Positions 9,678-42,035 of a stretch of DNA of 64,000 nt are shown here, piece after piece. Numbering within the stretch: position 1 is the first letter of the stretch; each line of letters opens with the position of its first letter. Where the stretch lies: positions 9,161,008 to 9,225,007 of the forward strand of contig OX422192.1 of the NCBI GenBank assembly GCA_949130485.1. Reading direction: 5' to 3'. A program made the translations under genes and the position numbers. The DNA is from Agelas oroides. Its lineage: Eukaryota; Porifera; Demospongiae; Agelasida; Agelasidae. The notes below the pieces were generated by a model, which did not search any database, was not told the DNA's origin, and was given only the letters and a program-made list of their open reading frames with translations.

Positions 9678-11894
9678 TCATACAATGTAAACTTTGCCTG
9701 CAGATACATGGTCACTCACATATACAAAACCATCATCATCTATTACAATACCTGCAGGGTAACTGAACTGACCAAAGGAGGTCACAAACTCTCCACTTGT
9801 CTTAAACACTGACACACATTTGTGCCCATTGTCACACACATAAACTAACTGGTCAGAACCAACACAAATGCCACAAGGAAACTTTAGTTGTTCAGAAGCA
9901 GCACCCTTTTTACTGAAAGCAGACAAAAACTGTCCCTTGTGGTCAAAGACTTGCACACGGTTATTCCAACCATCACTCACATACAAATTTCCTGCTCTGT
10001 CCTGGGCAATGTCATTTGGATAGTTAAACTGACCATCTCCATTACCATGGCAACCAAAACTATTCATATACTCCAACTCTGTGTTCAGTATTTGAAATCT
10101 GTTGTTCCCACGATCACACACGTATAGTTTGTCATTGATGATCTTGATAATACTGAGGTCACTGAACTCTCCTGGTCGTGTGCCTTTTCTTTCAACAACT
10201 TTCATGAGCTTCCCTTCCTTGCTGAACTTGAAGAGTGAGCAGTTACCCCTGTCAGACACATAGATATTGTCATCTTTGTCCACAGCTACTCCGCTAGGGT
10301 GTGAAAACTTCTCACTTGTGATAGTTTGTACCTTCTTGCCCTCTCTATCAAACACTGTCACCTTCTTCCCACCATACTCAGCTACAACTAACTGTTGCTT
10401 GCTATTGAGTGCTTTCCCCCATGGGCGATTCACACCTTCCACGACCCTGACTGGCTCACCTAGCTGGGTGGGGTGGATCTTTGCAAACACTTGAAATGGA
10501 CTGCCAGCAATTTGGGTGCCATTCACCTTAACGATCAGGGTGTACCTCCCACGAACCTCTGGAGTGTAAGTGGCCTCATAAACTCCTCTCCCTTTTGAGG
10601 TAACTTTGGCGTGAACAACAGAATCATTCACAACTGATTTCAGCTCTGCCTCAACAACTTGCTGTTCTCCACAGAGCTGGCCATTTTGGTACACAGTGCG
10701 GACTGTGAACTGGGCTGACTTGCCAACTTCAGCAACTTTCGTCCCAGCCCCCTCTGCTGTGCACTTGGTGGGATCTGCTGGCAAGATTGTTACCTCAGCA
10801 TTCTTTTGACAGAGGTCAGAGATACCTTCAGCGCAGGCCACTCTAACACCAACATTCGCTACCTCTGCTGGTATGAGATTGATGCGCTCATGCTTTGCAC
10901 ACTGCTCTTGAATTTGCTCTTGAATGTGCTGCTGCAACGACATGAATTCTTCATCAGTTGCATTTTCAACACTGCGCTCTACAAACTCCACAAGACCTTG
11001 AATCTCACTGGTGGCTAGTGCGAAACTCTTCTTCTGTGCTCCCAGGTTGTCCAGCTTTTGCTGCTTCAATTCAGATGCTCTGTCCAGCAGTTGCTTCTCT
11101 CGCTTGTGCAGGATTTCATAAAGTTGCTTGAAAGACTGCTCAATTGTACCTGCAACAGCTTTATGTTGCTCAGAAACCTCCCTTTCAACCTTCTCCACCT
11201 CCCTGGTAGCAGCTGAGAGGTTGGTTTGGATCTTTGCAAGTGGCACCAAACTCTCTTTGACTGTTTTCTTGTACTGAGGGGCGGATTTCTTCACAAACTC
11301 AAACTTGTGTCCTGCATGATCACGAATGATGCAGTCTCGACAAATGAGGTGATTGCAATCAAAGCAGTAGATCTTCAACTGTTCATCGTGATCTTTGCAC
11401 ATTGAGGGCGGGGCTTCTTTCAGCGGGATCGCCTTAGCCCCGCCCTCTTTCAGTTCCTGGAGGGTCACGACTTTATGACCAGTGAATACCTTCATCACAC
11501 CGTGCATTCTCGCGCAATCGTTGCAGATAAAGTCAGTACATTGGCGACAAAACGCGACAGCCTTCGCTCTGGAACACATTTCACAAAGAGCTTCCATTTT
11601 CCCCTGCGCTTTTTCCATCTTTGTACGCAGTTCTTTCATTCGGTTGACGAAAAACGCCGTGGGCAGTTGATCGGGGTCATTTTGAGGCAAAAGTGTTCCC
11701 CTTCGGCACTCGGGGCACGAAAAGGGGCGGTTGGTTCCTGCTCGAAGGGCTAGTTGCCGGACGCACTCCTTGCAGTAGTAGTGAAGGCAAGGGAGGATCT
11801 TGGGGTCGCGGAAGTGCTCCTGGCAAACAGGGCAGGTGATCTCCTCCTCCAGCTCCTCCAACCCCTTCTCCACGGGATCTGGACCTTCCGCCAT
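9678..11894 (-). CDS. TRIM-NHL protein, copy A (RING, two B-boxes, coiled coil, filamin, NHL)
   Basis: Single-exon gene of 738 codons starting MAEGPDP. A C3HC4 RING runs from CPVCQEHF to CPECRRG (about residues 21-65). B-box 1 (CEMCSRAKAVAFCRQC) is at about 104-145 and B-box 2 (MCKDHDEQLKIYCFDCNHLI) at about 165-205. A long coiled coil follows to about 330, then a filamin/Ig-like domain ending KVNGTQIAGSPFQVFAK (about 370-475), then six NHL blades to the C terminus. Proteins of this order (TRIM2/3/71, Brat, LIN-41 type) are E3 ubiquitin ligases whose propeller binds RNA or protein. The start is set by the ATG shared with the other copies. It is convergent with CFAP70, whose stop is 250 bp away. 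Its RING and B-box metal ligands are intact, so a working ligase is likely; the substrate is unknown. Confidence 0.92.
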   Translation of the reverse strand: MAEGPDPVEKGLEELEEEITCPVCQEHFRDPKILPCLHYYCKECVRQLALRAGTNRPFSCPECRRGTLLPQNDPDQLPTAFFVNRMKELRTKMEKAQGKMEALCEMCSRAKAVAFCRQCTDFICNDCARMHGVMKVFTGHKVVTLQELKEGGAKAIPLKEAPPSMCKDHDEQLKIYCFDCNHLICRDCIIRDHAGHKFEFVKKSAPQYKKTVKESLVPLAKIQTNLSAATREVEKVEREVSEQHKAVAGTIEQSFKQLYEILHKREKQLLDRASELKQQKLDNLGAQKKSFALATSEIQGLVEFVERSVENATDEEFMSLQQHIQEQIQEQCAKHERINLIPAEVANVGVRVACAEGISDLCQKNAEVTILPADPTKCTAEGAGTKVAEVGKSAQFTVRTVYQNGQLCGEQQVVEAELKSVVNDSVVHAKVTSKGRGVYEATYTPEVRGRYTLIVKVNGTQIAGSPFQVFAKIHPTQLGEPVRVVEGVNRPWGKALNSKQQLVVAEYGGKKVTVFDREGKKVQTITSEKFSHPSGVAVDKDDNIYVSDRGNCSLFKFSKEGKLMKVVERKGTRPGEFSDLSIIKIINDKLYVCDRGNNRFQILNTELEYMNSFGCHGNGDGQFNYPNDIAQDRAGNLYVSDGWNNRVQVFDHKGQFLSAFSKKGAASEQLKFPCGICVGSDQLVYVCDNGHKCVSVFKTSGEFVTSFGQFSYPAGIVIDDDGFVYVSDHVSAGKVYIV

Positions 11895-12010
11895 CGCAAC
11901 TGTAGGCTTCTTTTCAAGGAAGAAAGCTAAAGAGGGTGGGTAAAAATGGCAGCCAGAACAGCGACTCAGCTACGCCCACACAGTTCTAGTGCGCATGTGC
12001 AAATGAATAT
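11895..12010 (-). promoter_or_regulatory. Conserved 5' flank of TRIM-NHL A
   Basis: The roughly 115 bp upstream of the start codon are shared with copies B, C and D: TTCTTTTCAAGGAAG, AGCTAAA, GGGTGGGTAAAAA and GCGACTCAGCTACGCCCACA, ending TCTAGTGCGCATGTGC. In unit 4 homology stops just past this point, so it is the smallest upstream block kept by all four genes. This is probably promoter plus 5' UTR; no transcript data are available. Confidence 0.5.
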
Positions 12011-12892
12011 GTACACAGCGGAATCGATGATTAGGCAACTCAACTCCACAGCCACAGTGGACACTACTTCCTGATGGGTGGAATTCATCTTCTAAACTAC
12101 ACCTCAAGATATTTGGTTCCCAGACCCTTCAGTGAAAGGGGTGGAGTGAGTGTTGGAACCCAAGATGCTCACATGTAGAACCTTGTGCCCTATCAGGTTT
12201 AACTCAGTCTCGGATATCACTATGTAGCTAAGGTAGATGCTGGTATTATGATCCAGGTAAGTTTGTTTCTTCAGTCGTATCTAAAACATTTCTTCAGAGA
12301 ATGTACAACTTAAAACGTAACATTGGTATTTTTTCCCTAGTCTCACTAGCCAGACTCTTTCTGGTGAGAGTCTGGCTACACAAGACTATTCTTACCCCTC
12401 TGCAGTGGTTCTGAAAGAAAGGGTCTACATAAATCACTCTTGCAGGTATTATGAGTCAACTGCAAGTATTATGATCAGAACGAAGAGAGATTGTAAAATG
12501 CAGCACCTGGTGACTGCATTTGTCGGCCTGATGAGCGATTGACAAGCCGAACAGTTCTTTCCCACAGCCCTCAACTGCCGGGAAGTGAGTGTTAGTAACC
12601 TAACATCTGAGTCAGTTGTGACACAATGCTCCTCCCTCCTTGTCCCACACAGTGTGGCTGTACAGCTGCAGACAGTATAGAGTTGTGGATTTACTTTAAG
12701 AGCAAGTTGATTCAAGTGCAACTCCCGATAAACTCAACGGTGGCTCAGATTAGAGCAGGGTATAGTGAGCTACTGGCTGTATTGCCAAGCTCACCTGAGC
12801 TCACCCGAACAAGTACAGTAAGGCTAGCTACACTGTCTACACGTAGGTAAAAGAATGACTGAAGGATGAGATGTGACTATCTTCATCCGAGT
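12011..12892. other. Non-coding 5' flank of TRIM-NHL A shared with units 2 and 3
   Basis: No gene was recognised. The segment is colinear with 18776-20711 (apart from the insertion there) and partly with 26820-27480. It carries a hairpin of the TAGYCTCG family at 12338-12388. A GTACAGCTGCAGACAG stretch recurs in unit 2 at about 20490. Confidence 0.6.
12338..12388. repeat. Hairpin TAGTCTCACTAGCCAGACTC (unit 1 copy)
   Basis: TAGTCTCACTAGCCAGACTC is followed by the inverted GAGAGTCTGGCT and then AAGACTA. Positional copies sit at 20147-20197 (unit 2) and 27286-27336 (unit 3), so this hairpin was duplicated with the unit. Confidence 0.75.
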
Positions 12893-15352
12893 ATGACGTG
12901 GAGGGGTGTGGGCATTGCATGCTACAATGTAGAAGAGAACGAAACACTACCACTGTTACTAGTTTTACTGCAGAATACAAGTACAGTGAATTATGGAAAT
13001 GCTGTAACTGTCAATCTTCTCTATAGCTGGGTGATCTGGTACCACACACACTAGCGGTGGGCCTACCTCACCATAGTCTGCCTCAAGGTACACACACACA
13101 CTAGCGGTGGGCCTACCTCACCACAGTCTGCCTCAAGGTACACACACACACTAGCGGTGGGCCTACCTCACCATGGTCTGCCTCAAGGTACACACACACA
13201 CTAGCGGTGGGCCTACCTCACCATGGTCTGCCTCAAGGTACACACACACTAGCGGTGGGCCTACCTCATCATGGTCTGCCTCAAGGTACACACACACACT
13301 AGCGGTGGGCCTACCTCACCATGGTCTGCCTCAAGGTACACACACACACTAGCGGTGGGCCTACCTCACCACAGTCTGCCTCAAGGTACACACACACACA
13401 CTAGCGGTGGGCCTACCTCACCATGGTCTGCCTCAAGGTACACACACACACTAGCGGTGGGCCTACCTCACCATGGTCTGCCTCAAGGTACACACACACT
13501 GGCGGTGGGCCCACCTCACCATGGTCTGCCTCAAGGTACACACACACTAGCGGTGGGCCCACCTCACCATGGTCCGCCTCAAGGTACACACACACTAACG
13601 GTGGGCCCACCTCACCATGGTCTGCCTCAAGATACACACACACTGGCGGTGGGCCTACCCCACCATGGTCTGCCTCAAGGTACACGCACACTAGCGGTGG
13701 GCCCACCTCACCATGGTCTGCCTCAAGGTACACGCACACTAGCGGTGGGCCCACCTCACCATGGTCTGCCTCAAGGTACACACACACTAGCAGTGGGCCC
13801 ACCTCACCATGGTCTGCCTCAAGGTACACACACACACTAGCGGTGGGCCCACCTCACCGTGGTCTGCCTCAAGGTACACACACACACTAGTGGTGGGCCC
13901 ACCTCACCGTGGTCTGCCTCAAGGTACACACACACACTAGCGGTGGGCCTACCTCACCGTGGTCTGCCTCAAGGTACACACACACACTAGTGGTGGGCCC
14001 ACCTCACCGTGGTCTGCCTCAAGGTACACACACACTAGCGGTGGGCCTACCTCACCATGCTCTGCCTCAAGGTACACACACACTAGCAGTGGGCCCACCT
14101 CACCATGGTCTGCCTCAAGGTACACACACACTAGCAGTGGGCCTACCTCACCATGGTCTGCCTCAAGGTACACACACACTAGCGGTGGGCCTACCTCACC
14201 GTGGTCTGCCTCAAGGTACACGCACACTAGCAGTGGGCCTACCTCACCATGGTCTGCCTCAAGGTACACACACACTAGTGGTGGGCCTACCTCACCATGG
14301 TCTGCCTCAAGGTACACACACACTAGCGGTGGGCCCACCTCACCATGGTCTGCCTCAAGGTACACACACACTAGCAGTGGGCCTACCTCACCATGGTCTG
14401 CCTCAAGATACACACACACTAGCGGTGGGCCCACCTCACCATGGTCTGCCTCAAGGTACACACACACACTAGCGGTGGGCCTACCTCACCATGGTCTGCC
14501 TCAAGATACACACACACTAGCAGTGGGCCCACCTCACCATGGTCTGCCTCAAGGTACACACACTAGTGGTGGGCCCACCTCACCATGGTCTGCCTCAAGG
14601 TGCACGCACACTAGCGGTGGGCCCACCTCACCATGGTCTGCCTCAAGGTGCACACACACAACTTGTTCCAACTGCTCTTGTGTTTTGCAGTAGATACTCT
14701 TTAGTACTGCACACAACAAAAGCTCAATAAGACATATTATGTCCAAGAGGGGCGTGGTCTGCTTGTTCCCTGTATACCCACATGTGCAGGGGGTGGGGTG
14801 GTGTGTACACGTGTATAGTGTGCATTGTGAGTATAGTGATAGTTGTGTATATAGTGTACATTGTGAGCACATACCTTATATGGTGATGTACAATCTTCTT
14901 TGCCACCTCATGCAGACAGAGGGACCAGTGCAGTCAAGGTGAGGTCTTAGAGGGGTTTGGCAATTGAGGTGGGTGGGTGGGTGGGTGTGGTCTCGGACAG
15001 GGTCTACTACAAAGATCGCATAAGATGGCAGTGAGTCGCCATCTCCTGTTCACCCTGTGCGGCTGATGAGGCCTGGTATTGGTCGAAATTAACATCTGCT
15101 AACTGCTTTTCTCATTGTTCACAAAGGACAAGTTTCCCTACTTTGAAACAACTCAATTATGTGCGTTGCCTAACAGAAGTTATTTTCTGGGGGGTTGGTG
15201 ATTGAAATACCTTTACTGGAGAATCATATCTGCATATCAAGCTACCTTTGTGTGTCTCTGCAGGCTGGTTTGAAGGATCCTGAGAGCTCCACCGGACTCT
15301 CTCTCCCTCCACTGACCTTGTGCACCTCCAACAACTGACAGTAGCTACGTAG
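12893..15352 (+). pseudogene. Broken CFAP70 3' fragment in duplication unit 2
   Basis: This is a partial copy of the last CFAP70 exons. Sequence like exon 8107-8195 is at 12893-12937 (GACGTGGAGGGGTGTGGG). The exon start CTGGGTGATCTGG is near 13026, followed by the hugely expanded exon-end minisatellite. A shortened relative of exon 9038-9085 is at about 14915-14938, and the terminal exon at 15264-15352 has lost about 18 bases in the middle. No open reading frame spans it, so it is a non-functional relic. Confidence 0.85.
13040..14660. repeat. Expanded 45-50-bp minisatellite with more than 30 copies of a splice donor
   Basis: Head-to-tail units contain GGTGGGCCTACCTCACCATG, then GTCTGCCTCAAGGTACACAC and ACTAGC. 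They are the same unit as at 8340-8690 and derive from the CFAP70 exon end and its GT donor. Copies vary by single substitutions and by the number of CA dinucleotides. The long open frames seen in it on both strands are products of the period. Confidence 0.95.
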
Positions 15353-15609
15353 AACATGAACACTCTGTATCTTGTCTTTATAACTGACCCAGTGTATACT
15401 CATGCACACTGAAATTGAGATTACAAATCGAGACAAGCAGGTGAGTTTGAAATTAGGTACCTGCAAATCAAGAGTATGGATCTGCAACCAAGGTAGTTAT
15501 CAGTAAACACTCAAAAGATGCAAAGTACCTACATAGTACAAGTATAGCTACTGGCATACACAAAACCATCATCATGCACCATGCAGTACCTGCACTGACA
15601 CACATCCAG

Positions 15610-15725
15610 TAGCCTCGAACCCAGGCTTTCCGTTCTGGATTTTGTCTCGCAGCTTTGGAGGAAAACCGATTTTTCTCCAAAGCTGCAAGACAAAACCCAG
15701 AACGGAAAGCCTGGGTTCGAGGCTA
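15610..15725. repeat. 116-bp near-perfect palindrome of the TAGYCTCG family
   Basis: TAGCCTCGAACCCAGGCTTT at the left and AAAGCCTGGGTTCGAGGCTA at the right are exact reverse complements. The arms continue inward through CCGTTCTG, TTTTGTCT and GCAGCTTTGGAG almost to the centre. A diverged relative is at 62715-62863. Confidence 0.9.
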
Positions 15726-15766
15726 CACATCCAGTGTCACATCACCCTAAATGAGTTGTTTGGAAG

Positions 15767-16367
15767 TAGCCTCATTCCCAGGCCTACCCCGTTTTTTGTT
15801 CTTCGGTTTACGTTCACTATAATACATGGAGACGGAAGAGTGCGAAAAACAGGGAAGGCCTGGGAACTATAGTACCACAGCTCGTTTCACAACTCGAATC
15901 TTATTGGTTGGGTTAGGGTTAATTTAGGGTGTTGTTAGGGCAACAGCGCATATAAATGTGTATAATATATTGACCAATAGGATTAGAACTTCGATAAGAG
16001 CTGCGGGATATTTCCCTGGGAACACCTGTCACGTGAATGACGTCTGGTGGACGGACGTAGGGGGGCGGTGCCCAACTACAAATTCGTGTGCAATAAACCA
16101 TAGAGCAAATTTCTTACCGGTGAAGTCAAGTATTGTCGATCTTGTGAACGTCTGGGGTCCAGGCTATCATTGGAGCGCTTGATGATGAAGTCTAGTATAC
16201 GTTGTTTGAATGTGGACCCCTCTGTCCACCTCGCGTCCACCTGACGTCATTCACGTGATAAGTGTTCCCAGGCCTTCCCCGTTTTTCCCGCTCTTCCGCT
16301 TCTGTGTATTATACTGAACAAAAACTGAAGAACAAAAAAAAACAGGGGAGGCCTGGGAATGAGACTA
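15767..16367. repeat. Composite palindromic element with hairpins at both ends
   Basis: The left end begins TAGCCTCATTCCCAGGCC and the right end finishes GGCCTGGGAATGAGACTA. Each end is itself a hairpin of about 100 bp containing GTTTTTTGTTCTTCGGTTT-type and GGAAGAG motifs. Inside both are CACGTGAATGACGTC and its inverse GACGTCATTCACGTG. Related copies lie at 28360-28640 and 33493-33653. No coding region was found. Confidence 0.75.
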
Positions 16368-16433
16368 GTACAATAATGAAAGTACAACAATCCACTTAAC
16401 TTAGAGCACTACATAATGAATGTAAAATATTAG

Positions 16434-18665
16434 TTACAACATGTAAACTTGGCCTGCAGTTACATAGCTTCCCACAAACAAGAAGCCATCATCATCAATT
16501 ACAATACCTGCAGGGTTAATGAACTGACCAAAGGAGGTCACAAACTCTCCACTTGTCTTAAACACTGACACACATTTGTTCCCCCTGTCACACACATAAA
16601 CTAACTGGTCAGAACCAACACAGACGCCAAAGGGATACCTTAGTTGTTCAGAAGCAGCACCCTTCTTACTGAAAGTAGACAAAAACTGTCCCTTGCAGTC
16701 AAAGACTTGCACACGATCATTCTTACTATCACTCACATACAAATTTCCTGCACTGTCCCGGGCAATGTCACTTGGCCACTGAAACTGACCATCTCTATCA
16801 CCATGGCAACCAAAACTATTCAAATACTCCAACTCTGTGTTCAGTATTTGAACTCTGTTTTTCCCACGATCACACACGTACAGTTTGTCATTGATGACCT
16901 TGATCATACTAAGATCCCTGAACTCTCCTCGTTGTGTGCCTTCTCGTCCAACTACTTTCATGAGCTTCCCTTCCTTGTTGAACTTGAAAAGTGAGCAGTT
17001 TACCATGTCAGACACATAGATATTGTCATCTTTGTCCACAGCTACACCAGTAGGGATTAAAAACTTCTCACATGTGATTGTTTGTACCTTCTTGCCCTTT
17101 CTATCTAACACTGTCACCTTATTCCCATCCCTCTCAGCGACAACTAACTGCTGCTTGCTGTTGAGTGCTATCCCCCATGGGCCTACCACTCCTTCCATGA
17201 CCCTGACTGGCTCACCTAGCTGGGTGGGGTGAATCTTGGCAAACACTTGAAATGGACTGCCAGGAATTTCGGTGCCATTCACCTTCACAATCAGGGTATG
17301 CCTCCCACGAACCTCTGGAGTGTAAGTGATCTCATAAACTCCTCTCCCTTTTGAGGTCACTTTGACGTGAACAACAGAATCATTCACAACTGATTTCAGC
17401 TCTGCCTCAACCACTTGCTTTTCTCTGCTGAGCTGACCATTTTTGTACACAGTGTGAACTGTGAACTGGGCTGACTTGCCGACTTCAGCAACTTTTGTCC
17501 CAGGCTCCTCTGCTGTGCACTTGGTGGGATCCACTCTCAAAACTATTACCTCGGCATTCTTTTGACAGAGGTCAGAGATACCTTCAGCACAGGCCACTCT
17601 AACACCAACATTCGCCACCTCTGCTGGTATGAGATTGATGTGCTCATGCTTTGCACACTGCTCTTGGATTTGCTCTTGAATGTGCTGCTGCAACGACATG
17701 AATTCTTCATCAGTTGCATTTTCAACACTGCGCTCTACAAACTCCACAAGACCTTGAATCTCACTGGTGGCCAGTGTAAAATTCTTCTTCTGTGCTCCCA
17801 GGTTGTCCAGCTTTTGCTGCTTCAATTCAGACGCTCTGTCCAGCAGTTGCTTCTCTCGTTTGAGTAGGATTTCATGAAGCTGCTTGAAGGACTGCTCAAT
17901 TGTGCCTGCAACAGCTTTATGTTGCTCAGAAACCTTCCTCTCAACCTTCTCCACCTCCCTGGTAGCAGCTGAGATGTTGGTTTGTATCTTTGCAAGTGGT
18001 GCCAAACTCTCCTTGACTGTTTTCTTGTACTGAGGGGCGGATTTCTTCACAAACTCAAACTTGTGTCCTGCATGATCACGAATGATGCAGTCTCGACAAA
18101 TGAGGTGATTGCAATCAAAGCAGTAGATCTTCAACTGTTCATCGTGGTCTTTGCACATTGAGGGTGGGGCTTCTTTCAGCGGGATCGCCTTAGCCCCGCC
18201 CTCCTTCAGCTCCTGAAGGGTCACGACCTTATGACCAGCGAAGGTCTTCATCTTTCTGTGCGATCTCACGCAATCGCTGCAGATGAATTCGGCACACTGG
18301 CGGCAAAACGCTTCCACCTTCGCTCCAGAACACAATTCGCAAATAGCTTCCACTTTTCCCTGCGCTTTCTCCATTTTTGTACGCAGTTCTTTCATTCGGT
18401 TGACGAAAAACGCCGTGGGAAGTTGATCGGGGTCATTTTGAGGCAAAAGTGTTTCCCTTCGGCACTCGGGGCACGCAAAGGGGCGGTTGGCCCCTGCTCG
18501 GAGGGCCAGTTGTTGGACGCACTCCTTGCAGTAGTAGTGGAGGCAAGGGAGGATCTTTGGGTCGCGGAAGTGCTCCTGACAAACGGTGCAGGTGACCTCG
18601 TCTTCTAACCCTTCCTCCAACTCCTCTAACCCCTTCTCCACGGGATCCGGAGCTTCTGCCATCAC
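16434..18665 (-). CDS. TRIM-NHL protein, copy B
   Basis: Single-exon gene of 743 codons with the same domains in the same order as copy A. Near the N terminus GLEELEE is followed by a second GLEDE, a small in-frame duplication that explains the extra residues. The RING starts CTVCQEHF, where the other copies have CPVC. B-boxes, coiled coil and filamin domain are nearly identical to the other copies. The NHL blades differ mainly at the residues before P-x-G (LIPTG, QWPSD, RYPFG, INPAG) and in the loop before the next strand (SDMVNCS, SDSKNDR). The ATG at 18665 is followed by a second ATG one codon on; the second one aligns with the other copies' start. An E3 ligase role is inferred from the family. 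Confidence 0.92.
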   Translation of the reverse strand: MMAEAPDPVEKGLEELEEGLEDEVTCTVCQEHFRDPKILPCLHYYCKECVQQLALRAGANRPFACPECRRETLLPQNDPDQLPTAFFVNRMKELRTKMEKAQGKVEAICELCSGAKVEAFCRQCAEFICSDCVRSHRKMKTFAGHKVVTLQELKEGGAKAIPLKEAPPSMCKDHDEQLKIYCFDCNHLICRDCIIRDHAGHKFEFVKKSAPQYKKTVKESLAPLAKIQTNISAATREVEKVERKVSEQHKAVAGTIEQSFKQLHEILLKREKQLLDRASELKQQKLDNLGAQKKNFTLATSEIQGLVEFVERSVENATDEEFMSLQQHIQEQIQEQCAKHEHINLIPAEVANVGVRVACAEGISDLCQKNAEVIVLRVDPTKCTAEEPGTKVAEVGKSAQFTVHTVYKNGQLSREKQVVEAELKSVVNDSVVHVKVTSKGRGVYEITYTPEVRGRHTLIVKVNGTEIPGSPFQVFAKIHPTQLGEPVRVMEGVVGPWGIALNSKQQLVVAERDGNKVTVLDRKGKKVQTITCEKFLIPTGVAVDKDDNIYVSDMVNCSLFKFNKEGKLMKVVGREGTQRGEFRDLSMIKVINDKLYVCDRGKNRVQILNTELEYLNSFGCHGDRDGQFQWPSDIARDSAGNLYVSDSKNDRVQVFDCKGQFLSTFSKKGAASEQLRYPFGVCVGSDQLVYVCDRGNKCVSVFKTSGEFVTSFGQFINPAGIVIDDDGFLFVGSYVTAGQVYML

Positions 18666-18775
18666 AACTGTATCTTCTTTTCAAGGAAGAGAGAAAGCTA
18701 AAGGTGGGTAAAAAGCCAGAGCAGAAAAATGCGACTCAGCTACGCCCACACAGTTCTAGTGCGCATGTGCAGCTG
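18666..18775 (-). promoter_or_regulatory. Conserved 5' flank of TRIM-NHL B
   Basis: It carries the same upstream block as copy A (TTCTTTTCAAGGAAG, GGTGGGTAAAAA, GCGACTCAGCTACGCCCACA, GTGCGCATGTGC), supporting retention of a promoter or 5' UTR with each duplicated gene. Confidence 0.5.
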
Positions 18776-18942
18776 GCAATTCAACTCCATCAGCCACAGA
18801 CAGTGGACTACTTCCTGATGGGTGGAATTGATCTTTTAAACTACACCTCAAGATATTTAATTTGGTTCCCAGACCCTTCAGTGAAGGGGGCAGAGTGAGT
18901 GTTGGAACCCAAGATGCTCACATGTAGAACCTTGTACCTTAA

Positions 18943-19198
18943 GGTGGCACAGTACCCTGTATTTTCAAGGTCAACAAACCTGGAATCCAAGTTGATAGTC
19001 TTCTTTGTCTTGTTAAAATTTTAGCGCACAGTCCGTTTTGGGAGTCTCAAATCGTTCACGGTCCGTAAAATTGGGGATTTTCCCCATTTCCTGTCGGCAT
19101 TGCCATCCAATAATCAGTTTATAATTAAGTTAGTTAAGATGTGGCCTGGCGGCACCCTTCATGTGGTGCTCGGAACTTTGAAGATAAGCTTAGATCGA

Positions 19199-19237
<39 letters not shown>

Positions 19238-19963
19238 GGAGTTTAGTAGAGTGCTGTAGTGTCAGTAGCTGTGAGTAGTGCGTGATGCCTGCTTGTGAAA
19301 GCAAGCTTGTGTCTAGAAGCAGCAGAAAGGCCACAGTGGCCAAGACTGTATTTGTTGAGTAGGCCCAGGTCTCGCGGCCGTATGCCTAGTCTAGTTGGTG
19401 ACCGTGGCCAGGTGCTTCGAGTGCTGGGCTGGGCTTTAACTAGAATACGCAATTTATCGTTTGTGCTACAGTCTGACAGACAAGGGAGCTGAACGGTGGC
19501 TGTGTGTGGAACAGAGCCGTGAGTTGTTTAGCGACATAAGGGGGAGAGGTGGGGCTAGTAATGCTTGCTTCCACTCGTGAATGAGCCCCTCCCGTAGACA
19601 AGCTGTGAATTTTTCGAAATGTGCATTCATTTTGGTGCAGTCAAAGTTGTCCATTCCAAGAGTAGTGACAAACATGAGTCTAGCCTGACTTTGAGAGTAG
19701 CTTTGAACAAAAGCTGGCATAGATTGATTTGAGATACATTGGTGGTTGGGACGCTACCTACAGTGAGCGTGTAGATGCGTCCATCGAGTGGCAATTTTGG
19801 GTTCATGAATATATTAATGAGCTACTAAAACCCTTTTTAAAATTAGGCAAAGCAAGATTGCCCTAAACCAAACCCTAACCCTGAAACTAGGAGTAACCCT
19901 GGTCCTGACTGTAACCCAAGTTTATGTTTTCGTTAACCTCCGCCGAGGGACGACCGTGCCACC
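18943..19963. mobile_element. Non-autonomous element of about 1.0 kb flanked by TTAA
   Basis: It is absent from the colinear places in units 1 and 3. The ends are GGTGGCACAGT and the inverted ACCGTGCCACC, and TTAA lies directly outside both (18939-18942 and 19964-19967). A TTAA target is typical of piggyBac-type elements, but the inverted ends are short and no transposase was recognised. An uninterrupted run of about 32 A lies inside at about 19201-19232. Short open frames inside match nothing I recognise. Confidence 0.6.
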
Positions 19964-20146
19964 TTAAGAGTTCTATTAGCTTTAACTCAGTCTTCCCTTG
20001 GGATATCATTAGGTAACTATGTAAGGTAGAAGCTGGTATTATGCGCCAGGTAAGCTGAATTGCTCATTATATTTTATTTCTTCATTCGCATCTAAAAGTT
20101 TAAACCATTTCTCCAGAGAATGTACAACTTAAAACATAACATTGGT

Positions 20147-21051: not shown

Positions 21052-21089
21052 ATTGAATGTGCAACTAGTAGTGGAGCTTGAATGAACTC

Positions 21090-23236: not shown

Positions 23237-23676
23237 TGCATGTGTATACTTTTGATTCATCATATACCGGTAAGTCGAACTTCTTGGGCTTACTCCCAAA
23301 AGTGGTAAGGACCAATGAGATTACGAGATTGGTAATTATTACGTAGCACTTCCCTTACAACAGTAAAAAAATTTTATCTCTACCTTTTTTGAGCGGGTTT
23401 AGCATAAAAGGTTTTGAACGTTGCTAGGTTACACTGTTGCAAAAGTGTGTTCTAACCCAAGAAATTCGACTTGGTTCACCAGACTGTTTCTCCTTGTGAG
23501 AGGGTGGGGTCTGGGGACGAGACTATGTCAAAACCTCCCTAGGGGGCGTGGTCTGCTTGTTAACCTCCCCTGTATACCCACATGTGCAGGGATAGGGTGG
23601 TATGTAGTTGTGTATACAGTGTACATTGTGAGTACATACCTTATATGGTGATGTACAATCTTCATTGCCACCTCAG

Positions 23677-24135
23677 ACGGAGAGACCAGTGGAAGCTGAA
23701 CAAGCTCTCAAGTTTGCAGTCAAGGTGAGGTCTTAGAGGGGTGTGGGTGTGGGTATAGTCTGGGACAGGGTCTACTACAGAGATCCATGCATGCATGAGA
23801 TGGCAGTCCCCATCTCCCGCTGACCCCAGCGCAGCTGATGAGGCCTGGTATTGGTCGAAATTAACATCTGCTAACTGTTTTTCTTATTGTTCATAGAGGA
23901 CAAGTTTCCCTACTTTGAAACAATTCAATTATTGAGTTTCCTAACAGAAGTTATCTTCTGGGGTTTTGGTGATTGAAGTGTCATTTGCCATGTCTGCATA
24001 TCAAGCTACCTTTGTGTGTCTCTGCAGGCTGGTTTGAAGGATCCTTCCCTCACAGTTGAGATCAGGGAGCTCCACCAGACTCTCTCTCCCTCCACTGACC
24101 TTGTACACCTCCACCAACTGACAGTAGCTACATAG
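23677..24135 (+). pseudogene. CFAP70 last two exons, copy in unit 3
   Basis: 23677-23724 matches exon 9038-9085 and 24028-24135 matches the terminal exon 9317-9424 including the stop. Splice sites and frames of both are intact, but the upstream exons needed to start a protein are missing. It is best seen as a truncated passenger of the TRIM duplication. The preceding 23236-23676 is non-coding and shared with unit 4 at about 27650-28083. Confidence 0.85.
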
Positions 24136-24463
24136 AGCACTCATGCTATCCCACACCTTGTCCTTATAATTATCTAACCATTGTACGTTCACACTCAAAA
24201 TGTAGACAATCAAGTTCCCAGGCCTTCTGACCATACAAGTGATCAAAACTGGATGGTGGGAAGGCTTGTGAGTGAGGCTACCCAAGGCTAGAAACTAGCT
24301 ATAGGATTAGAAAATGGCTCCGGCAAGGATTGCATGCATGCAGGAAGACGGACACACTTATACATACCTGGGACCAGAAACTGAGAATGTACTACTAATG
24401 TCATAGCTTTGTAAACAATACAAAAATTAATACCGGCCATTCTTGAACAATCAATAAAAGTAG

Positions 24464-26663
24464 TCATAATATGAAAACTTGGCCTGCACTTTCCTCATTG
24501 CCCACAAATACAAAACCGTCATCATCTATTACAATACCTATCGGGCAACTGAACTGACCAAAGGAGGTCACAAACTCTCCACTCGTCTTAAACACTGACA
24601 CACAATTGTTCCCATTTTCACACACATAAACTAACTGGTCAGAACCAACACAGATGCCATAAGGTGCAGAATCCTTTTTACTGAAAGTAGACAAAAACTG
24701 TCCCTTGCAGTCAAAGACTTGCACACGATTGTTGTTAGTATCAGTCACGAAAAAATTTCCTGCTCTGTCCTGGGCAATGTCATTTGGGTCATTGAACTGA
24801 CAATCTCCATCACCATGGCAACCAAAGCTATTCAAATACTCCAACTCTGTGTTCAGTATTTGAACTCTGTTGTTCCCACTATCACACACATACAGTTTGT
24901 CATTGATGACCTTGATCATACTAAGACTCCTAAACTCTCCTGGTTGTGCACCTTTTTGTCCAACTACTTTCATGAGCTTCCCTTCCTTGCTAAACTTGAG
25001 AAGGGAGCAGTTATCATCATCTGACACATAGATATTGTCATCTTTGTCTATAGCTACTCCTATAGGGCTCGAAAACTCATTTGTGATTGTTTGCATCTCC
25101 TTGCCCTCCCTGTCAAACACTGTCACTTTCCTTCCATGCTCCTCAGCTACAACCAACTGCTGCTTGCTGTTGAGTGCTATCCCCCATGGGTTGTTCACTC
25201 CTTCCACGACCCTGACCCCTGACTGGCTCACCTAGCTGGGTGGGGTGGATCTTTGCAAACACTTGAAATGGACTGCCAGCAATTTCGGTGCCATTCACCT
25301 TAACGATCAGGGTATGCCTCCCACGAACCTTGGGAGTGTAAGTGACCTCATAAACTCCTCTCCCTTTTGAGGTGACTTTGGCGTGAACAACAGAATCATT
25401 CACAACTGATTTCAGCTCTGCCTCGACCACTTGCTTTTCTCTACAGAGCTGGCCATTTTGGTACACAGTGTGGACTGTGAACTGGGCTGACTTGCCAACT
25501 TCAGCAACTTTTGTGCCAGCCCCCTCTGCTGTGCACTTAGTGGGATCTGGCAAGACCATCACCTCAGCATTCTTTTGACAGAGGTCAGAGATACCTTCAG
25601 CACAGGCCACTCTAACACCAACGTTTGCTACCTCTGCTGGTATGAGATTGATGTGCTCATGTTTTACACACTGCTCTTGGATTTGATCTTGAATGTGCTG
25701 CTGCAACGACATGAATTCTTCATCAGTTGCATTTTCAACACTGCGCTCTACAAACTCCACAAGACCTTGAATCTCGCTGGTGGCTAGTGCGAAACCCTTC
25801 TTCTGTGCTCCGAGGTTGTCCAGCTTTTGCTGCTTCAATTCAGACACCCTGTCCAGCAGTTGCTTCTCTCGCTTGTGTAGGATTTCATGAAGTTGCTTGA
25901 AAGACTGCTCAATTGTGCCTGCAACAGCTTTATGTTGCTCAGAAACCTCCCTCTCAACCTCCTCCACCTCCCTGGTAGCAGCTGAGATGTTGGTTTGGAT
26001 CTTTGCAAGTGGTGCCAAACTCTCTTTGACTGTTTTCTTGTACTGAGGGGCGGATTTCTTCACAAACTCAAACTTGTGTCCTGCATGATCACGAATGATA
26101 CAATCTCGACAGATGAGGTGATTGCAATCAAAGCAGTATATCTTCAACTGTTCATCGTGGTCTTTGCACATTGAGGGCGGGGCTTCTTTGAGCGGGATCT
26201 CCTTAGCCCCACCCTCCTTCAGCTCCTGAAGGGTCACAACCTTATGGGTGGCGAACGTCTTCATCCTTCTGTGCGATCTCACGCAATCGCTGCAGATAAA
26301 CTCGGTACATTGGCGGCAAAACGCTTCTACCTTTGCTCTAGAACACACCTCGCACATGGCTTCCACTTTTCCATGCGCTTTCCCCATTTTTGTACGCAGT
26401 TCTTTCATTCGATTGACGAAAAACGCCGTAGGTAGTTGATCGGGGTCATTTTGAGGCAAAACTGTTCCCCTTCGGCACTCGGGGCACGCAAAGGGGCGGT
26501 TGGTCCCTGCTCGGAGGGCCAGTTGTCGGACGCACTCCTTGCAGTAGTAGTGGAGGCAAGGGAGGATCTTGGGGTCGCGGAAGTGCTCCTGGCAAACGGG
26601 GCAGGTGATCTCCTCCTCCAGCTCCTCCAACCCCTTCTCCACGGGAACTGGAGCTTCCGCCAT
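24464..26663 (-). pseudogene. TRIM-NHL copy C, frame-shifted between filamin and NHL domains
   Basis: The frame 25143-26663 (506 codons, MAEAPVPVEKG) gives RING, two B-boxes, coiled coil and filamin domain, then runs out of frame into a short foreign tail. The NHL propeller continues openly in another frame from about 25220 to 24464. At about 25205-25218 the plus strand reads GACCCTGACCCCTGACTGGC, where the other copies have a single CCCTGAC: a 7-bp tandem duplication. Both halves remain free of other stops, so the event looks young. The gene may now make a propeller-less TRIM, or be a pseudogene, or the sequenced allele may be one of several. The spacer between the second and third blades and part of blade five also differ in length from the other copies. 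Confidence 0.88.
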
Positions 26664-26790
26664 CGCAGCTATAGCTTCTTTTCAAGGAAGAGAGAGAAAG
26701 CTAAAGGGGGTGGGTAAAAATGGGAGGCAGAGCAGAAAAATGCGACTCAGCTACGCCCACACGGTTCTAGTGCGCGCGTGTGCAAATGAA
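26664..26790 (-). promoter_or_regulatory. Conserved 5' flank of TRIM-NHL C
   Basis: It shares TTCTTTTCAAGGAAGAGAG, GGTGGGTAAAAA, GCGACTCAGCTACGCCCACA and TTCTAGTGCGCG with the other copies. It is kept although the gene is frame-shifted. Confidence 0.45.
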
Positions 26791-27483
26791 TGTGTACCCA
26801 GTGGATGAGAGCTGACCATTAGGCAACTCAACTCCACCAGCCACAGTGGACACTACATCCTGATGGGTGGAATTGATCTTCTAAACTACACCTCAAGAGA
26901 TAAAATTTGGTTCCCAGACCCTCCAGTGAAAGGGGTGCAGTGTGTGTTGGGAACCCAAGATGCTCACATGTAGAACCTTGTGCCCTATCAGCTTTAACTC
27001 AGTCTGCCCTAGGGATATCATTAGGCAACTATGTAGCTAAGGTAGATGCTGGTATTATGAGCCAGGTAAGCTGAATTACTTTATTTCTTCAGTCGTATCT
27101 AAAACATTTAGTACTAGTATTATGATCCAGATAAGCTGAATTACTTTATTTCTTCAGTCATATCTAAAACATTTAGTACTAGTATTATGATCCAGATAAG
27201 CTGAATTACTTTGTTTCTTCAGTCGTATCTAAAACATTTCTTCAGAGAATGTACCACTTAAAACATAACATTGGTATTTTTCCCCTAGTCTCGCTAGCCA
27301 GACTCTTTCTGGTGAGAGTCTGGCTGCACAAGACTATTCTTACCCCTCTGCAGTGGTTCTGAAAGAAAGGGTCTATGTATCACTCTTGCAGGTATTAAGA
27401 GTCAACTGCAAGTATTGTGATCAGGACGAAGAGAGATTGTAAAATGCAGCACCTGGTGACTGCGTTTGTTGGCCTGATGAGCC
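26791..27483. other. Non-coding TRIM 5' flank in unit 3
   Basis: It is colinear with 12011-12530. It contains a short tandem triplication of TATTATGATCCAGATAAGCT-type units (about 27050-27240) and the hairpin at 27286-27336. No gene was seen. Confidence 0.55.
27286..27336. repeat. Hairpin TAGTCTCGCTAGCCAGACTC (unit 3 copy)
   Basis: The left arm is TAGTCTCGCTAGCCAGACTC and the right arm GAGAGTCTGGCT plus AAGACTA. It is the positional equivalent of the copies in units 1 and 2. Confidence 0.75.
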
Positions 27484-28978
27484 GGGGGTGGGCAGGGCAG
27501 ACATTCATGTACCAGTGCACAAATGCCTGGAAACAAGACTACACACACAGCACAGTTATGCGCATGAAGGATATTTCGCCAGAGGGCTTTACTCACAAGT
27601 AAATTGAACGTGCAACTAGTAGTGGAGCTTGCATGGACTCTTCTTGTGCATGTGTATACTTTTGATTCATCATATACCGGTAAGTCTGGTGAACAAAGTC
27701 GAATTTCTCTTATTCCCAAAAAGTGGTAAGGACCAATGAGATTCCCTTACAACAGTAAAAAATTTTTTATCTCTACTTGAGTATCCGTACTTTTTTTGAG
27801 CGGGTTTAGCATAAAAGGTTTTGACGTTGCTAGGTTACACTGTTGCAAAAGTGTGTGCTAACCTAAGAAATTCGACTTGGTTCACCAGACTGTTTCTCCT
27901 CATGAGAGGGTGGGGTCTGGGGATGAGACTATGTCAAAACCTCCCTAGGGGGCGTGGTCTGCTTGTGATCCTCCCCTGTATACCCACATGTGCAGGGGAT
28001 AGGGTGGTATGTACACATGTATATATTGTACATTGTGAGTACATACCTTATATGGTGATGCACAATCTTCTTTGCCACCTCAGACGGAGAGACCAGTGGA
28101 AGCTGAACAAGCTCTCAAGTTTGCAGTCAAGGTGAGGTCTTAAAGGGGTGTGGTAATTGTGTGTGTGGGTGTGGTCAGGGACAGGGTCTACTGTAGAGAT
28201 CCATGCATGCATGAGATGGCAGTCCCCATCTCCTGCTCATCCCAGCTGACGAGGCTTGGTATTGGTCGAAATTAACATCTGCGACTGCTTTTCTCACTGT
28301 TCATAAAGGAGAAGTTCTACTACAGAGATCCATATACTGATGAGATGGCATTCCCCATCAGCCTCGTTCCCAGGCCTCCCCCATTTTTTGTTATTCGATT
28401 TGCATTCAGTATAATACACGGAAGCGAAAGATGTTATGCAATCGAAGTCACCCACTGCGAAGGACATATTTTGGTCAAGGCCTTATCAGCTGTGCTGGGG
28501 TGACCAGGAGATGGGGACTGCTATCTCATGCACAAAATACAGTCAGGTACATAGTCAGGTGGATTTTCGCCGCTCTTCCGCTTCCGTGTATGCAAACCAA
28601 ATACCAAAAAAGAAATGGGGAAGGCCTGGGAACGAGGCTAAGTCCCATCTCTGTGCTCATCCCAGCGCAGCTGATGAGGTATTGGTCAAAATTATCATCT
28701 GCTAACTACTTTTCTCATTGTTCATAAAGGACAAGTGTCCCTACTTTGAAACAACTCAATTATGAGTTTCGTAACAGAAGTTATCTTCTGGGGTTTTGGT
28801 GATTGAAAGCCTTTACTGGAGAATCATTTGTCATGTCTGCATATCAAGCTGCCTTTGTGTGTCTCTGCAGGCTGGTTTGAAGGATCCTTCCCTCACAGCT
28901 GAGATCAGGGAGCTCCACCAGACTCTTTCTCCCTCCACTGACCTCCTGCACCTCCACCAACTGACAGTAGCTACATAA
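27484..28978 (+). pseudogene. CFAP70 fragments in duplication unit 4
   Basis: 27484-27600 matches the part of CFAP70 around 6095-6400 (GGGCAGGGCAGACATTCATG, TATTTCGCCAGAGGGC). 28084-28131 matches exon 9038-9085, and 28871-28978 matches the terminal exon, ending in TAA instead of TAG. Intervening exons are missing, so this is a passenger relic of the duplication. Confidence 0.85.
28360..28640. repeat. Hairpin-ended element of the TAGYCTCG family
   Basis: It starts AGCCTCGTTCCCAGGCC and ends GGCCTGGGAACGAGGCTA. The outer arms carry the GTTATTCGATTTGCATTCAG and GGAAGCG motifs seen at 15767 and 33493. A copied piece of local CFAP70-intron sequence lies inside. Confidence 0.75.
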
Positions 28979-29060
28979 AATAAACACCCTGCATTTAGTC
29001 TTTATAACTTACCCACTGTACACTCACACTCACACATTGTCTGACCTGGTGCACCTCCAC

Positions 29061-29104
29061 TAGCCTTGTTCCCAGACCATGTGCATGGCCTGGGAACAAG
29101 GCTA
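29061..29104. repeat. 44-bp hairpin of the TAGYCTCG family
   Basis: TAGCCTTGTTCCCAG is followed by ACCATGTGCATGGC and the exact inverse CTGGGAACAAGGCTA. It is one of the smallest members, lying in the non-coding spacer 28979-29348 where nothing else was recognised. Confidence 0.85.
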
Positions 29105-29348
29105 CATGAAATGGTTCTGTCTGTACACCTACATACTCACATTCACATTGAGATTACAAAGAAACTGAAAGACTGGCAGTGTTAGAAATGGAAAAAATCT
29201 GTACCTGGGATGAATTCTAGTTGATCAAGCCAGGCACTGAGGTGGTTATGTGGGTAGTTCTCTGGAACAAAACTTCATATCACAGTTTTTGTTAATTACA
29301 TTATTATTAATTACAGAGAAGAAACAATAAATGGGATATCCAAGGTAC

Positions 29349-31565
29349 TCATAACATGAAAACTCTGCCTGCAGTTTTATAATCACTCACGTAAACAAAA
29401 CCATCATCATCAATTACAATACCTGCAGGATGACTAAACTGACCAAAGGAGGTCACAAACTCTCCACTTGTCTTAAATACTGACACACAACTGTGCCCAT
29501 TGTCACACACATAAACTAACTGATCAGAACCAACACAGATGCCAAGAGGACGGTTGAGTTGTTCAGAAGCAGCACCCTTTTTACTGAAAGTAGACAAAAA
29601 CTGTCCCTTGCAGTCAAAGACTTGCACATGGTCATTGTAACTATCAGTCACATACAAATTTCCTGCTCTGTCCTGAGCAATACCATTTGGCCAGTGAAAC
29701 TGACAATCTCCATCACCATGGCAACCAAAACTATTCAAATAATCCAACTCTGTGTTCAGTATTTGAACTCTGTGGTTCTCACAATCACACACGTACAGTT
29801 TGTCATTGATGAGCTTGATCATACTGAGATTACTGAACTCTCCTGGTTGTGCGCCTTTTTGTCCAACTACTTTCATGAGCTTTCCTTCCTTGCTGAACTT
29901 GAAGAGTAAAGAGTTACCCTTGTCAGACACATAGATATTGTCATCTTTGTCCACAGCTACTCCTTTAGGACGAGAAAACTTCTCACATGTGATTGTTTGT
30001 ACCTTCTTTCCCTCTCTATCAAACACTGTCACCTTCTCCCCATCATACTCAGCTACAACTAACTGCTGCTTGCTGTTGAGTGCTATCCCCCATGGCCCTA
30101 CCACTCCTTCCACGACCCTGACTGGCTTGCCTAGCTGGGTGGGGTGGATCTTAGCAAGCACTTGAAATGGACTGCCAGCAATTTGGGTGCCATTCACCTT
30201 CACAATTAGGGTATGCCTCCCACGAACCTCTGGAGTGTAAGTGACCTCATAGACTCCTCTCCCTTTTGAGGTGACTTTGGCGTGAACCACAGAATTATTC
30301 ACAAGGGATTTCAGCTCTGCCTCAACCACTTGCTTTCCTCCACAGAGCTGGCCATTTTGGTACACAGTGCGGACTGTGAACTGGGCTGACTTGCCGACTT
30401 CAGCAACTTTTGTCCCAGGCCCCTCTGCTGTGCACTTGGTGGGATCCACTCTCAAGACTATTACCTCAGCATTCTTTTGACAGAGGTCAGAGATACCTTC
30501 AGCATAGGCCACTCTAACACCAACATTCGCCACCTCTGCTGGTGTGAGATTGATGCACTCATGTTTTACACACTGCTCTTGGATTTGCTCTTGAATGTGC
30601 TGCTGCAACGACATGAATTCTTCATCAGTTGCATTTTCAACACTGCGCTCTACAAACTCCACAAGACCTTGAATCTCACTGGTGGCTAGTGCGAAACCCT
30701 TCTTCTGTGCTCCCAGGTTGTCCAGCTTTTGCTGCTTCAATTCAGATGCTCTGTCCAGCAGTTGCTTCTCTCGTTTGAGTAGGATTTCATGAAGTTGCTT
30801 GAATGACTGCTCAATTGTGCCTGCAACAGCTTTATGTTGCTCAGAAACCTCCCTCTCAACCTTCTCCACCTCCCTGGTAGCAGCTGAGAGGTTGGTTTGG
30901 ATCTTTGCAAGTGGCACCAAACTCTCTTTGACTGTTTTCTTGTACTGAGGGGCGGATTTCTTCACAAACTCAAACTTGTGTCCTGCGTGGTCACGAATGA
31001 TGCAGTCTCGACAAATGAGGTGATTACAATCAAAGCAGTATATCTTAAACTGTTCATCATGATCTTTGCACATTGAGGGCGGGGCTTCTTTCAGTGGGAT
31101 CGCCTTAGCCCCGCCCTCTTTCAGCTCCTGAAGGGTCACGACCTTATGAGTGGCGAACATCTTCATCCTTCTGTGCGATCTCACGCAATCGCTGCAGATA
31201 AATTCGGCACACTGGCGGCAAAACGCTTCTACCTTTGCTCTAGAACACACCTCGCACATGGCTTCCACTTTTCCCTGCGCTTTCTCCATCTTGGTACGCA
31301 GTTCTTTCATTCGGTTGACGAAAAACGCCGTGGGCAGTTGATCTGGGTCGTTTTGAGGCAAAACAGTTCCCCTTCGGCACTCAGGGCACGCAAAGGGGTG
31401 GTTGGTTCCTGCTCGGAGGGCCAGTTGTCGGACGCACTCTTTGCAGTAGTAGTGGAGGCAAGGGAGGATCTTGGGGTCGCGGAAGTGCTCCTGACAAACG
31501 GGGCAAGTGATCTCCTCCTCCAGCTCCTCCAATCCCTTTTCCACAGGATCCGGAACTTCCGCCAT
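29349..31565 (-). CDS. TRIM-NHL protein, copy D
   Basis: Single-exon gene of 738 codons (MAEVPDPVEKG). RING (CPVCQEHF to CPECRRG), B-box 1 (CEVCSRAKVEAFCRQC), B-box 2, coiled coil, filamin-like domain and six NHL blades are all present, with ligand cysteines and histidines intact. Its N-terminal two thirds are almost the same as copies A-C. The NHL part has its own residues at the variable loop sites (SRPKG, SDKGNSL, HWPNG, TDSYNDH, NRPLG, SHPAG). It probably acts as a cytosolic E3 ubiquitin ligase or RNA/protein-binding regulator, by family analogy. Confidence 0.92.
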   Translation of the reverse strand: MAEVPDPVEKGLEELEEEITCPVCQEHFRDPKILPCLHYYCKECVRQLALRAGTNHPFACPECRRGTVLPQNDPDQLPTAFFVNRMKELRTKMEKAQGKVEAMCEVCSRAKVEAFCRQCAEFICSDCVRSHRRMKMFATHKVVTLQELKEGGAKAIPLKEAPPSMCKDHDEQFKIYCFDCNHLICRDCIIRDHAGHKFEFVKKSAPQYKKTVKESLVPLAKIQTNLSAATREVEKVEREVSEQHKAVAGTIEQSFKQLHEILLKREKQLLDRASELKQQKLDNLGAQKKGFALATSEIQGLVEFVERSVENATDEEFMSLQQHIQEQIQEQCVKHECINLTPAEVANVGVRVAYAEGISDLCQKNAEVIVLRVDPTKCTAEGPGTKVAEVGKSAQFTVRTVYQNGQLCGGKQVVEAELKSLVNNSVVHAKVTSKGRGVYEVTYTPEVRGRHTLIVKVNGTQIAGSPFQVLAKIHPTQLGKPVRVVEGVVGPWGIALNSKQQLVVAEYDGEKVTVFDREGKKVQTITCEKFSRPKGVAVDKDDNIYVSDKGNSLLFKFSKEGKLMKVVGQKGAQPGEFSNLSMIKLINDKLYVCDCENHRVQILNTELDYLNSFGCHGDGDCQFHWPNGIAQDRAGNLYVTDSYNDHVQVFDCKGQFLSTFSKKGAASEQLNRPLGICVGSDQLVYVCDNGHSCVSVFKTSGEFVTSFGQFSHPAGIVIDDDGFVYVSDYKTAGRVFML

Positions 31566-41972: not shown

Positions 41973-42035
41973 TTTCACTCGGTCTGTTTTGATGAACTTT
42001 GACGATGTGAAATTCGACTTGGACCAGCTGAACAT

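Follow-up and report, generated by a model that had tools for sequence, protein, structure and literature searches.

Evidence for diversifying selection on one face of the NHL propeller in TRIM-NHL genes of the sponge Agelas oroides

The DNA analysed here (the window) is a stretch of 64,000 nucleotides from the demosponge Agelas oroides (positions 9161008-9225007 of contig OX422192.1, C10 in our numbering, in a genome of 259 Mb and 141 contigs), which between 9678 and 31565 carries four TRIM-NHL genes, all on the minus strand and each laid out in a single frame without introns. An initial annotation of this DNA had reported four copies, one of them broken, and had proposed that they combine a constant effector with a diversified binding face. 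The gene content was confirmed, i.e. copies A, B and D are open and copy C is frame-shifted, and no fifth copy was found in the window (tblastn, E 1e-3). Pfam recognises RING, B-box, filamin and NHL domains, with zf-B_box matching two stretches, and the gene layout is RING, then B-boxes, coiled coil, filamin and NHL. An eight-ligand RING, B-boxes plus coiled coil, and filamin plus a six-bladed NHL propeller are the features of the TRIM-NHL class (class VII / subfamily C), and from them the genes are predicted to encode RING E3 ligases of that class. As for the proposed diversification, our analysis indicates that diversifying selection very probably acts on the top face of the NHL propeller.

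The front end of the proteins, i.e. RING, B-boxes and coiled coil (RBCC) plus filamin, is indeed nearly constant: 430-439 of 476 residues are identical among A, B and D, and 201-208 of 256 in the NHL domain. The idea that gene conversion has made the front end uniform was rejected, as the pooled synonymous divergence among A-D is alike in both parts (0.188 for RBCC/filamin vs 0.204 for NHL). The listed start of copy B, a GTG at 18665, lies one codon upstream of the ATG adopted here, and copy C has, besides its frameshift, a 6-codon in-frame gap inside a D-A loop.

The structure model of the NHL domain has a predicted local distance difference test score (pLDDT) mostly above 90, with one block of ten at 78, and its structural neighbours include RNA-bound LIN41 and Brat; between B-boxes and filamin the model has a long helix (205-311), at low confidence there. 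Strands and loops were classified by hand from the secondary-structure string of the model, without coordinates, which covers 255 of the 262 NHL columns, and columns with more than 30% gaps were dropped. By structure and motif offset we set 43 rim positions on the top face (Table 1), after the idea had been drawn from A-D; fairer tests are therefore those on the 17 further copies and on the two other families described below. The earlier observation that differences pile up around P-x-G and in the loop after the second strand is borne out on all six blades, most weakly on blade III, which lacks P-x-G yet varies at the equivalent residues. On blades I-V (D 491-698), 10-14 of the 33 rim residues agree among A, B and D, and 36-38 of the 40 residues of the bottom face.

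Table 1. Genes, domains, rim stretches and flank of the TRIM-NHL cluster (positions in the window; residues numbered after copy D)
Feature	Position	Strand	Remarks
TRIM-NHL copy A	9678..11894	-	intact, 738 aa; open frame, Pfam; 88% identity to D
Shared proximal 5' flank, ~115 bp directly upstream of A	11895..12009	-	blastn: 86% to the same stretch of D
TRIM-NHL copy B	16434..18662	-	intact, 742 aa counted from ATG at 18662
TRIM-NHL copy C	24464..26663	-	frameshift between filamin and NHL; two frames
7-bp tandem duplication breaking the frame of copy C	about 25210..25223	-	direct reading against A, B, D
TRIM-NHL copy D	29349..31565	-	intact, 738 aa; reference for residue numbering
D 1-476: RING, two B-boxes, coiled coil, filamin	30138..31565	-	Pfam
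D 483-738: six-bladed NHL propeller	29352..30119	-	structure model, structural neighbours
D rim 489-492, end of D-A loop VI-I + P-x-G	30090..30101	-	M8 posterior >0.9 at 489, 490
D rim 507-510, B-C loop blade I	30036..30047	-	M8 posterior >0.9 at 507, 510
D rim 531-534, D-A loop I-II + P-x-G	29964..29975	-	M8 posterior >0.9 at 531, 532
D rim 549-552, B-C loop blade II	29910..29921	-	M8 posterior >0.9 at 549, 552
D rim 578-581, D-A loop II-III, without P-x-G	29823..29834	-	varies among the 117 external proteins
D rim 595-598, B-C loop blade III	29772..29783	-	M8 posterior >0.9 at 598, on one tree of the two
D rim 624-627, D-A loop III-IV + P-x-G	29685..29696	-	M8 posterior >0.9 at 625
D rim 642-645, B-C loop blade IV	29631..29642	-	M8 posterior >0.9 at 643
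D rim 671-674, D-A loop IV-V + P-x-G	29544..29555	-	M8 posterior >0.9 at 672, 674, and at 671 on one tree of the two
D rim 689-692, B-C loop blade V	29490..29501	-	M8 posterior >0.9 at 689
D rim 711-714, D-A loop V-VI + P-x-G	29424..29435	-	M8 posterior >0.9 at 712, and at 714 on one tree of the two
D rim 729-733, B-C loop blade VI	29367..29381	-	M8 posterior >0.9 at 730, 731, 732

The genome-wide count suggested by the initial annotation yielded at least about 20 intact full-length close copies, plus broken and partial ones (two queries agree), and two more families; these are lower bounds because scoring covered the best 61 of 388 and the best 61 of 375 candidates. The close copies lie on C10, C7, C1 and a few other contigs and, where a single match spans the copy, are 71-88% identical to D. 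Our sample of the first family consists of 20 intact coding sequences, i.e. A, B, D and 17 other loci. Of 7997 scored entries of a protein database, 1773 are relatives at E <= 1e-3, 120 of which were listed (74-90% identity to D); for five of the 20 genome copies the 120 include an identical protein, and 117 of the 120 make up our external alignment (A1; P0017, P0101 and P0102 left out). The eight RING zinc ligands (C21 C24 C36 H38 C41 C44 C60 C63) are kept in 120 of 120 aligned proteins (D, A, B and the 117 external ones) and in all 20 genome copies. A 2294-aa fusion hinted at by the open frame of one partial copy proved to be merely read-through of undetermined bases. Two triplets of equal-score matches with nearly even spacing (C12 at 2.715/2.755/2.794 Mb, C1 at 1.320/1.337/1.355 Mb) are either very recent segmental copies or an assembly artefact, and 11 of the 120 listed external proteins (P0009, P0012 and P0015 among them) are tied to one 341,446-base contig, which suggests a dense array in another assembly.

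In the first family the overall ratio of nonsynonymous to synonymous rates (omega) is 0.35 for RBCC plus filamin and 0.64 for NHL. Comparison of the codon models M8a and M8 on the NHL domain gave twice the log-likelihood difference (2dL) as 188 (NHL tree) and 199 (RBCC tree), with an omega of 3.4-3.75 in 11-13% of sites; in 28 null simulations with a lighter version of the model the largest 2dL was 10.2, vs 221.9 observed. The sites with a posterior above 0.9 number 22 on the NHL tree (11 in D-A loops, 9 in B-C loops, 2 at the x of P-x-G) and 21 on the RBCC tree (9, 11 and 1, respectively), and none falls on the 49 bottom-loop positions. The variable loops thus share one face, as had been claimed, and the spread over the propeller is clearly uneven. 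When a synonymous rate common to the NHL domain is used, omega is 2.2 at the 43 rim codons, 0.30 in the bottom loops and 0.41 in the strands; the 17 positions taken from the motifs of the initial annotation reach 2.55-2.75 in the 20 copies and 2.3-2.45 in the 17 copies other than A, B and D. Outside the propeller, secondary sites under positive selection were found at D 132-133 (B-box 1), 337, 399, 409 and 427 (filamin region), with D 132, 133 and 427 also within the 40 most variable positions of the external proteins; between L018 and P0099, 8 of the 14 differences lie at 409-435.

As a model-free statistic we used d12/d4, i.e. the divergence at first and second codon positions over the whole-gene four-fold divergence. 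In the first two families, disjoint pairs were chosen by RBCC synonymous distance (dS): six of ten pairs, with dS below 0.45, were used in the first family and five pairs in the second. At the rim d12/d4 is 2.62 (2.00-3.47) in the six disjoint close pairs and 2.47 (1.64-3.81) in A/B/D alone (three non-independent pairs), so that the variation does not come from the broken copy C alone. The corresponding values for the six pairs and for A/B/D are 0.88 and 0.56 in the rest of the top face, 0.40 and 0.34 in strands, 0.31 and 0.16 in bottom loops, and 0.28 and 0.28 in RBCC/filamin.

The pattern recurs in two further families of the same genome. The second (L037-L041, L049-L054; 34-36% identity to D, with the same domain kinds as seen on L037) gives an M8a-M8 2dL of 170.6, and its 14 sites above 0.9 comprise 13 in loops of the top face and one where a strand A begins; its rim omega with its own synonymous rate is 2.07 (p = 0.001) and its rim d12/d4, based on whole-gene four-fold sites, 3.25 (2.20-4.69). 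The third comprises 12 sequences (39-43% identity to D), from which five pairs were picked by eye from the identity matrix (L055 and L060 unused, L042 dropped as short), with a rim d12/d4 of 1.45 (1.07-1.92) and an omega of 1.36 in B-C loops, 0.85 in D-A loops and 0.39 in bottom loops. Across all four comparisons d12/d4 is 0.16-0.65 for the bottom, 0.34-0.42 for strands and 0.28-0.50 for RBCC/filamin. The 40 most variable positions of the 117 external proteins divide into 33 within NHL and 7 within RBCC/filamin; those within NHL all lie in B-C or D-A loops or at the first residues of strand A, and none is on the bottom. Four disjoint pairs of 97-99.5% identity, taken from genome and external proteins and made up of either alleles or separate copies, differ at 10 of 166 rim, 17 of 843 other NHL and 23 of 1884 front-end positions (Fisher: p = 0.007 for rim vs rest of NHL, 0.0002 for rim vs front end).

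A number of points weigh against selection on the rim. The codon model was purpose-written and took its branch lengths from nucleotide trees, and optimiser noise is visible, null values of 2dL going down to -8.5. RBCC plus filamin also gives a signal, though a weaker one (2dL = 36, omega 2.2 in 5% of sites), and when the posterior is lowered to 0.5 the 33 sites of the NHL tree (15 D-A, 12 B-C, 3 strand A, 2 strand C, 1 bottom) include one bottom and two strand-C sites, on that one tree. With their own synonymous rate, the whole D-A plus B-C loops have an omega of 1.0, D-A loops alone 0.82 (p = 0.11) and B-C loops alone 1.45 (p = 0.03); the rim of the 17 other copies then gives 1.31-1.36 (p = 0.03-0.05). 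A value below 1 at the loop sites is not established, the 0.82 of whole D-A loops notwithstanding. At the motif positions an omega above 1 is found with the shared rate and favoured by the model-free count, but with their own rate in the 17 other copies these positions reach only 1.13-1.20 (p = 0.4-0.6). By NG86 the rim has a ratio of nonsynonymous to synonymous differences (pN/pS) of 0.97-1.32, the intervals including 1, and with a local pS this method does not separate selection from neutrality there; it gives 1.01 for the rim of the second family. In that family an own-rate omega of 1.0 is obtained for D-A loops, for the top loops taken whole and for bottom loops, the compatibility test detects exchange in NHL (0 of 300 permutations), and with the four-fold sites of NHL as yardstick, which are unusually alike (21/458), not only the rim (6.95) but also the bottom (1.40) exceeds 1. 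The signal of the third family is modest, and among the near-identical pairs a single one, B and P0010, contributes six of the ten rim differences, five of which fall between residues 549 and 581.

An own-rate omega of 1.0 over the whole top loops and the NG86 range are what relaxed constraint would produce, i.e. a top face that after duplication has no ligand and drifts on a scaffold kept for folding. We regard this as extremely unlikely: the rim d12/d4 lies above 1 with a bootstrap interval clear of 1 in four of four comparisons, which already contradicts it, the exposed bottom loops of the first family are conserved, the RING is intact and the pattern is found in three families. The composition at selected sites, moreover, is off the codon expectation drawn from the NHL codons themselves, with W (4.2x), P, C, S and R (1.75x) enriched and D (0.37x), G, V and I (0.32x) depleted.

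The differing rim codons carry two or three nucleotide changes in 51% (first family) and 40% (second family) of cases, and path counting therefore yields synonymous steps there. Direct counts of four-fold divergence in codons whose amino acid is the same show no rise at the rim, where the numbers are small (5/34 in the first family, 2/32 in the second): the divergence is 44/199 within three codons, 44/229 far away and 187/1069 in the front end in the first family, and 9/193, 10/233 and 110/1007 in the second. This suggests that the weak own-rate and NG86 results are largely a multiple-hit effect. The multi-nucleotide changes and the exchange in the second-family NHL would also fit a process acting locally on the loop codons, by mutation (hypermutation) or exchange (gene conversion), that makes the variation in place of selection. 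Such a process is very unlikely in our view: four-fold sites are not raised at the rim or within three codons in either family, on which ground hypermutation of the loops was rejected, and the compatibility test finds no exchange in the first family (117 of 300 permutations for the whole gene, 227 of 300 for NHL). We know of no process that would strike only non-synonymous positions and only one face of the six blades.

With respect to the possible ligand, the available text on zebrafish LIN41 names 14 residues as touching RNA (PMC5908797). Placed by blade and motif, without superposition, all 14 fall in the rim (chance 1.9e-12), i.e. the face that diversifies is the one that holds the LIN41 contacts; six of the mapped positions have an M8 posterior of 1.0 and five of 0.02 or less. 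Together with RNA-bound LIN41 and Brat among the close structures, a mean net charge of +2.8 at the rim vs -7.7 on the bottom face, and the enrichment of R, this speaks for a rim that diversifies to read different RNAs, in Brat/LIN41-type regulators of viral, transposon or fast-evolving host transcripts. A conserved LIN41-like clamp was nevertheless rejected, because lysine and arginine make up just 118 of 886 residues (13%) of the 117 external proteins at the eight mapped basic positions (R564, R581, R611, K628, R676, R707, R752, R770). The rim charge, furthermore, lies anywhere from -5 to +7, and the enrichment of W, P, C and S exceeds that of R, which would suit protein or other ligands equally. 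The reading of RNAs is thus an unlikely explanation of the diversity, and RNA an improbable main ligand class; with the clamp not kept, this residue bias and the varied charge, a versatile contact surface fits better than one uniform RNA clamp.

Sponges combine histocompatibility with dense symbiont communities, and the preferential rim differences between near-identical copies could reflect a repertoire for self/non-self recognition (allorecognition) or symbiont sorting instead of pathogen defence. This alternative seems quite unlikely to us, since it draws on only four near pairs, which may or may not be allelic, and the Pfam domains are those of intracellular TRIM proteins, which would point to a role inside the cell. 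We consider it rather probable that the genes form a recognition repertoire of germline-encoded E3 ligases directed at foreign or fast-changing ligands, because a constant effector is joined to one face diversified at ligand-contact positions, the RING ligands are kept without exception in all the sets compared and three families show the pattern; a role in immune defence would be in line with this. The family has been amplified both in tandem and dispersed. In such a repertoire the proteins, probably cytosolic, would present the NHL propeller as a ligand-capturing head on a nearly constant RING, B-box, coiled-coil and filamin body, with the variable top face, to judge from LIN41, on the side away from where filamin attaches. 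Positive selection very probably drives two short variable stretches per blade (the P-x-G surroundings and the B-C loop) on the constant scaffold, TRIM-type dimers would present two NHL heads, the rim of each copy would recognise a different foreign or rapidly changing ligand, and capture may lead to ubiquitination of the ligand or a partner and, from there, to removal or signalling.

The stretches just upstream of A-D align pairwise at 77-86% (blastn of flanks), and the one upstream of A is part of a 397-bp match to C at 83%. Copy A is flanked on both sides by a minisatellite of ~48-bp units (window 8357-8686 and 13038-14716). Elsewhere in the window there are a tandem array of ~27-bp units that are 95-97% alike (2827-3607), an open hAT-transposase-like frame of 643 aa with Dimer_Tnp_hAT (55612-57543, plus strand), and a second local duplicate family, namely two similar small frames (41448-42035 and 51164-51640, both minus strand) that share WYADELPRCIAL and have no Pfam match. 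In the wider genome, exons of cathepsin-like genes (L069, L072) carry the motif CGASYAF, which we take to be the silicatein active site motif and which points to a demosponge.

Several known systems resemble the genes described here. The finTRIM (ftr) genes of teleost fish form a large lineage-specific TRIM family in which, according to the accessible text, 14 of 17 selected sites lie in predicted variable loops (PMC2657112), so that, as here, M8-type positive selection is concentrated in loops of the binding domain. That domain, however, is B30.2/PRY-SPRY, in a vertebrate family that came to light through virus-induced transcripts in trout, whereas the domain here is NHL; Pfam finds no SPRY/B30.2 match in the window copies, which are therefore analogous to finTRIM and not members of it. 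Primate TRIM5alpha (PMC2657112) and TRIM22 (PMC3356915) are likewise described, in the portions of these sources at hand, as RBCC effectors with a positively selected C-terminal domain, but this is a SPRY domain and the loci are few. TRIM71/LIN41, Brat, Mei-P26, TRIM2/TRIM3 and Thin share the fold, and TRIM2/3/LIN41 also the domain kinds, with the difference that the basic top-face clamp of LIN41 is not kept here. The mean ratio of nonsynonymous to synonymous substitution (Ka/Ks) of group 1 TRIMs between human and mouse is given as 0.13 in the available part of PMC2533329; the NHL members are placed in this group because group 2 is the SPRY group. Human TRIM2 and TRIM3 share 30 of 33 rim and 32 of 40 bottom residues on blades I-V (p = 0.32, not significant), i.e. 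there is no rim excess of differences, and A and D share 14 of 33 and 38 of 40. Here the rim is the fastest-evolving part. Large immune repertoires are known in sponges for NLR (PMC8242945) and SRCR (PMC10855680) genes; these have other domains, and selection on an NHL rim is not described for them in the accessible text. A search for literature on NHL-domain selection or on sponge or invertebrate TRIM-NHL families found no such case, most subscription journals being outside its scope, which is not proof of absence.

We tentatively propose that the top rim of the demosponge NHL domain is a germline-encoded variable receptor face of ~43 positions on six blades, carried by an invariant E3-ligase chassis, diversified in parallel in at least three families and perhaps variable between haplotypes as well. 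TRIM-NHL proteins are seen as ancient regulators that evolve slowly, and the NHL fold is known so far for conserved RNA/protein regulation. If the proposal is true, the NHL face would have become, in three families of one animal lineage, a surface for recognition under positive selection, and an intracellular recognition repertoire would exist on the NHL fold. The finTRIM/TRIM5 mode of E3-ligase diversification would then extend to an early-branching animal and a different fold. The list of rim positions, finally, names the residues that are likely to set NHL specificity and bears on how NHL domains choose their ligands.

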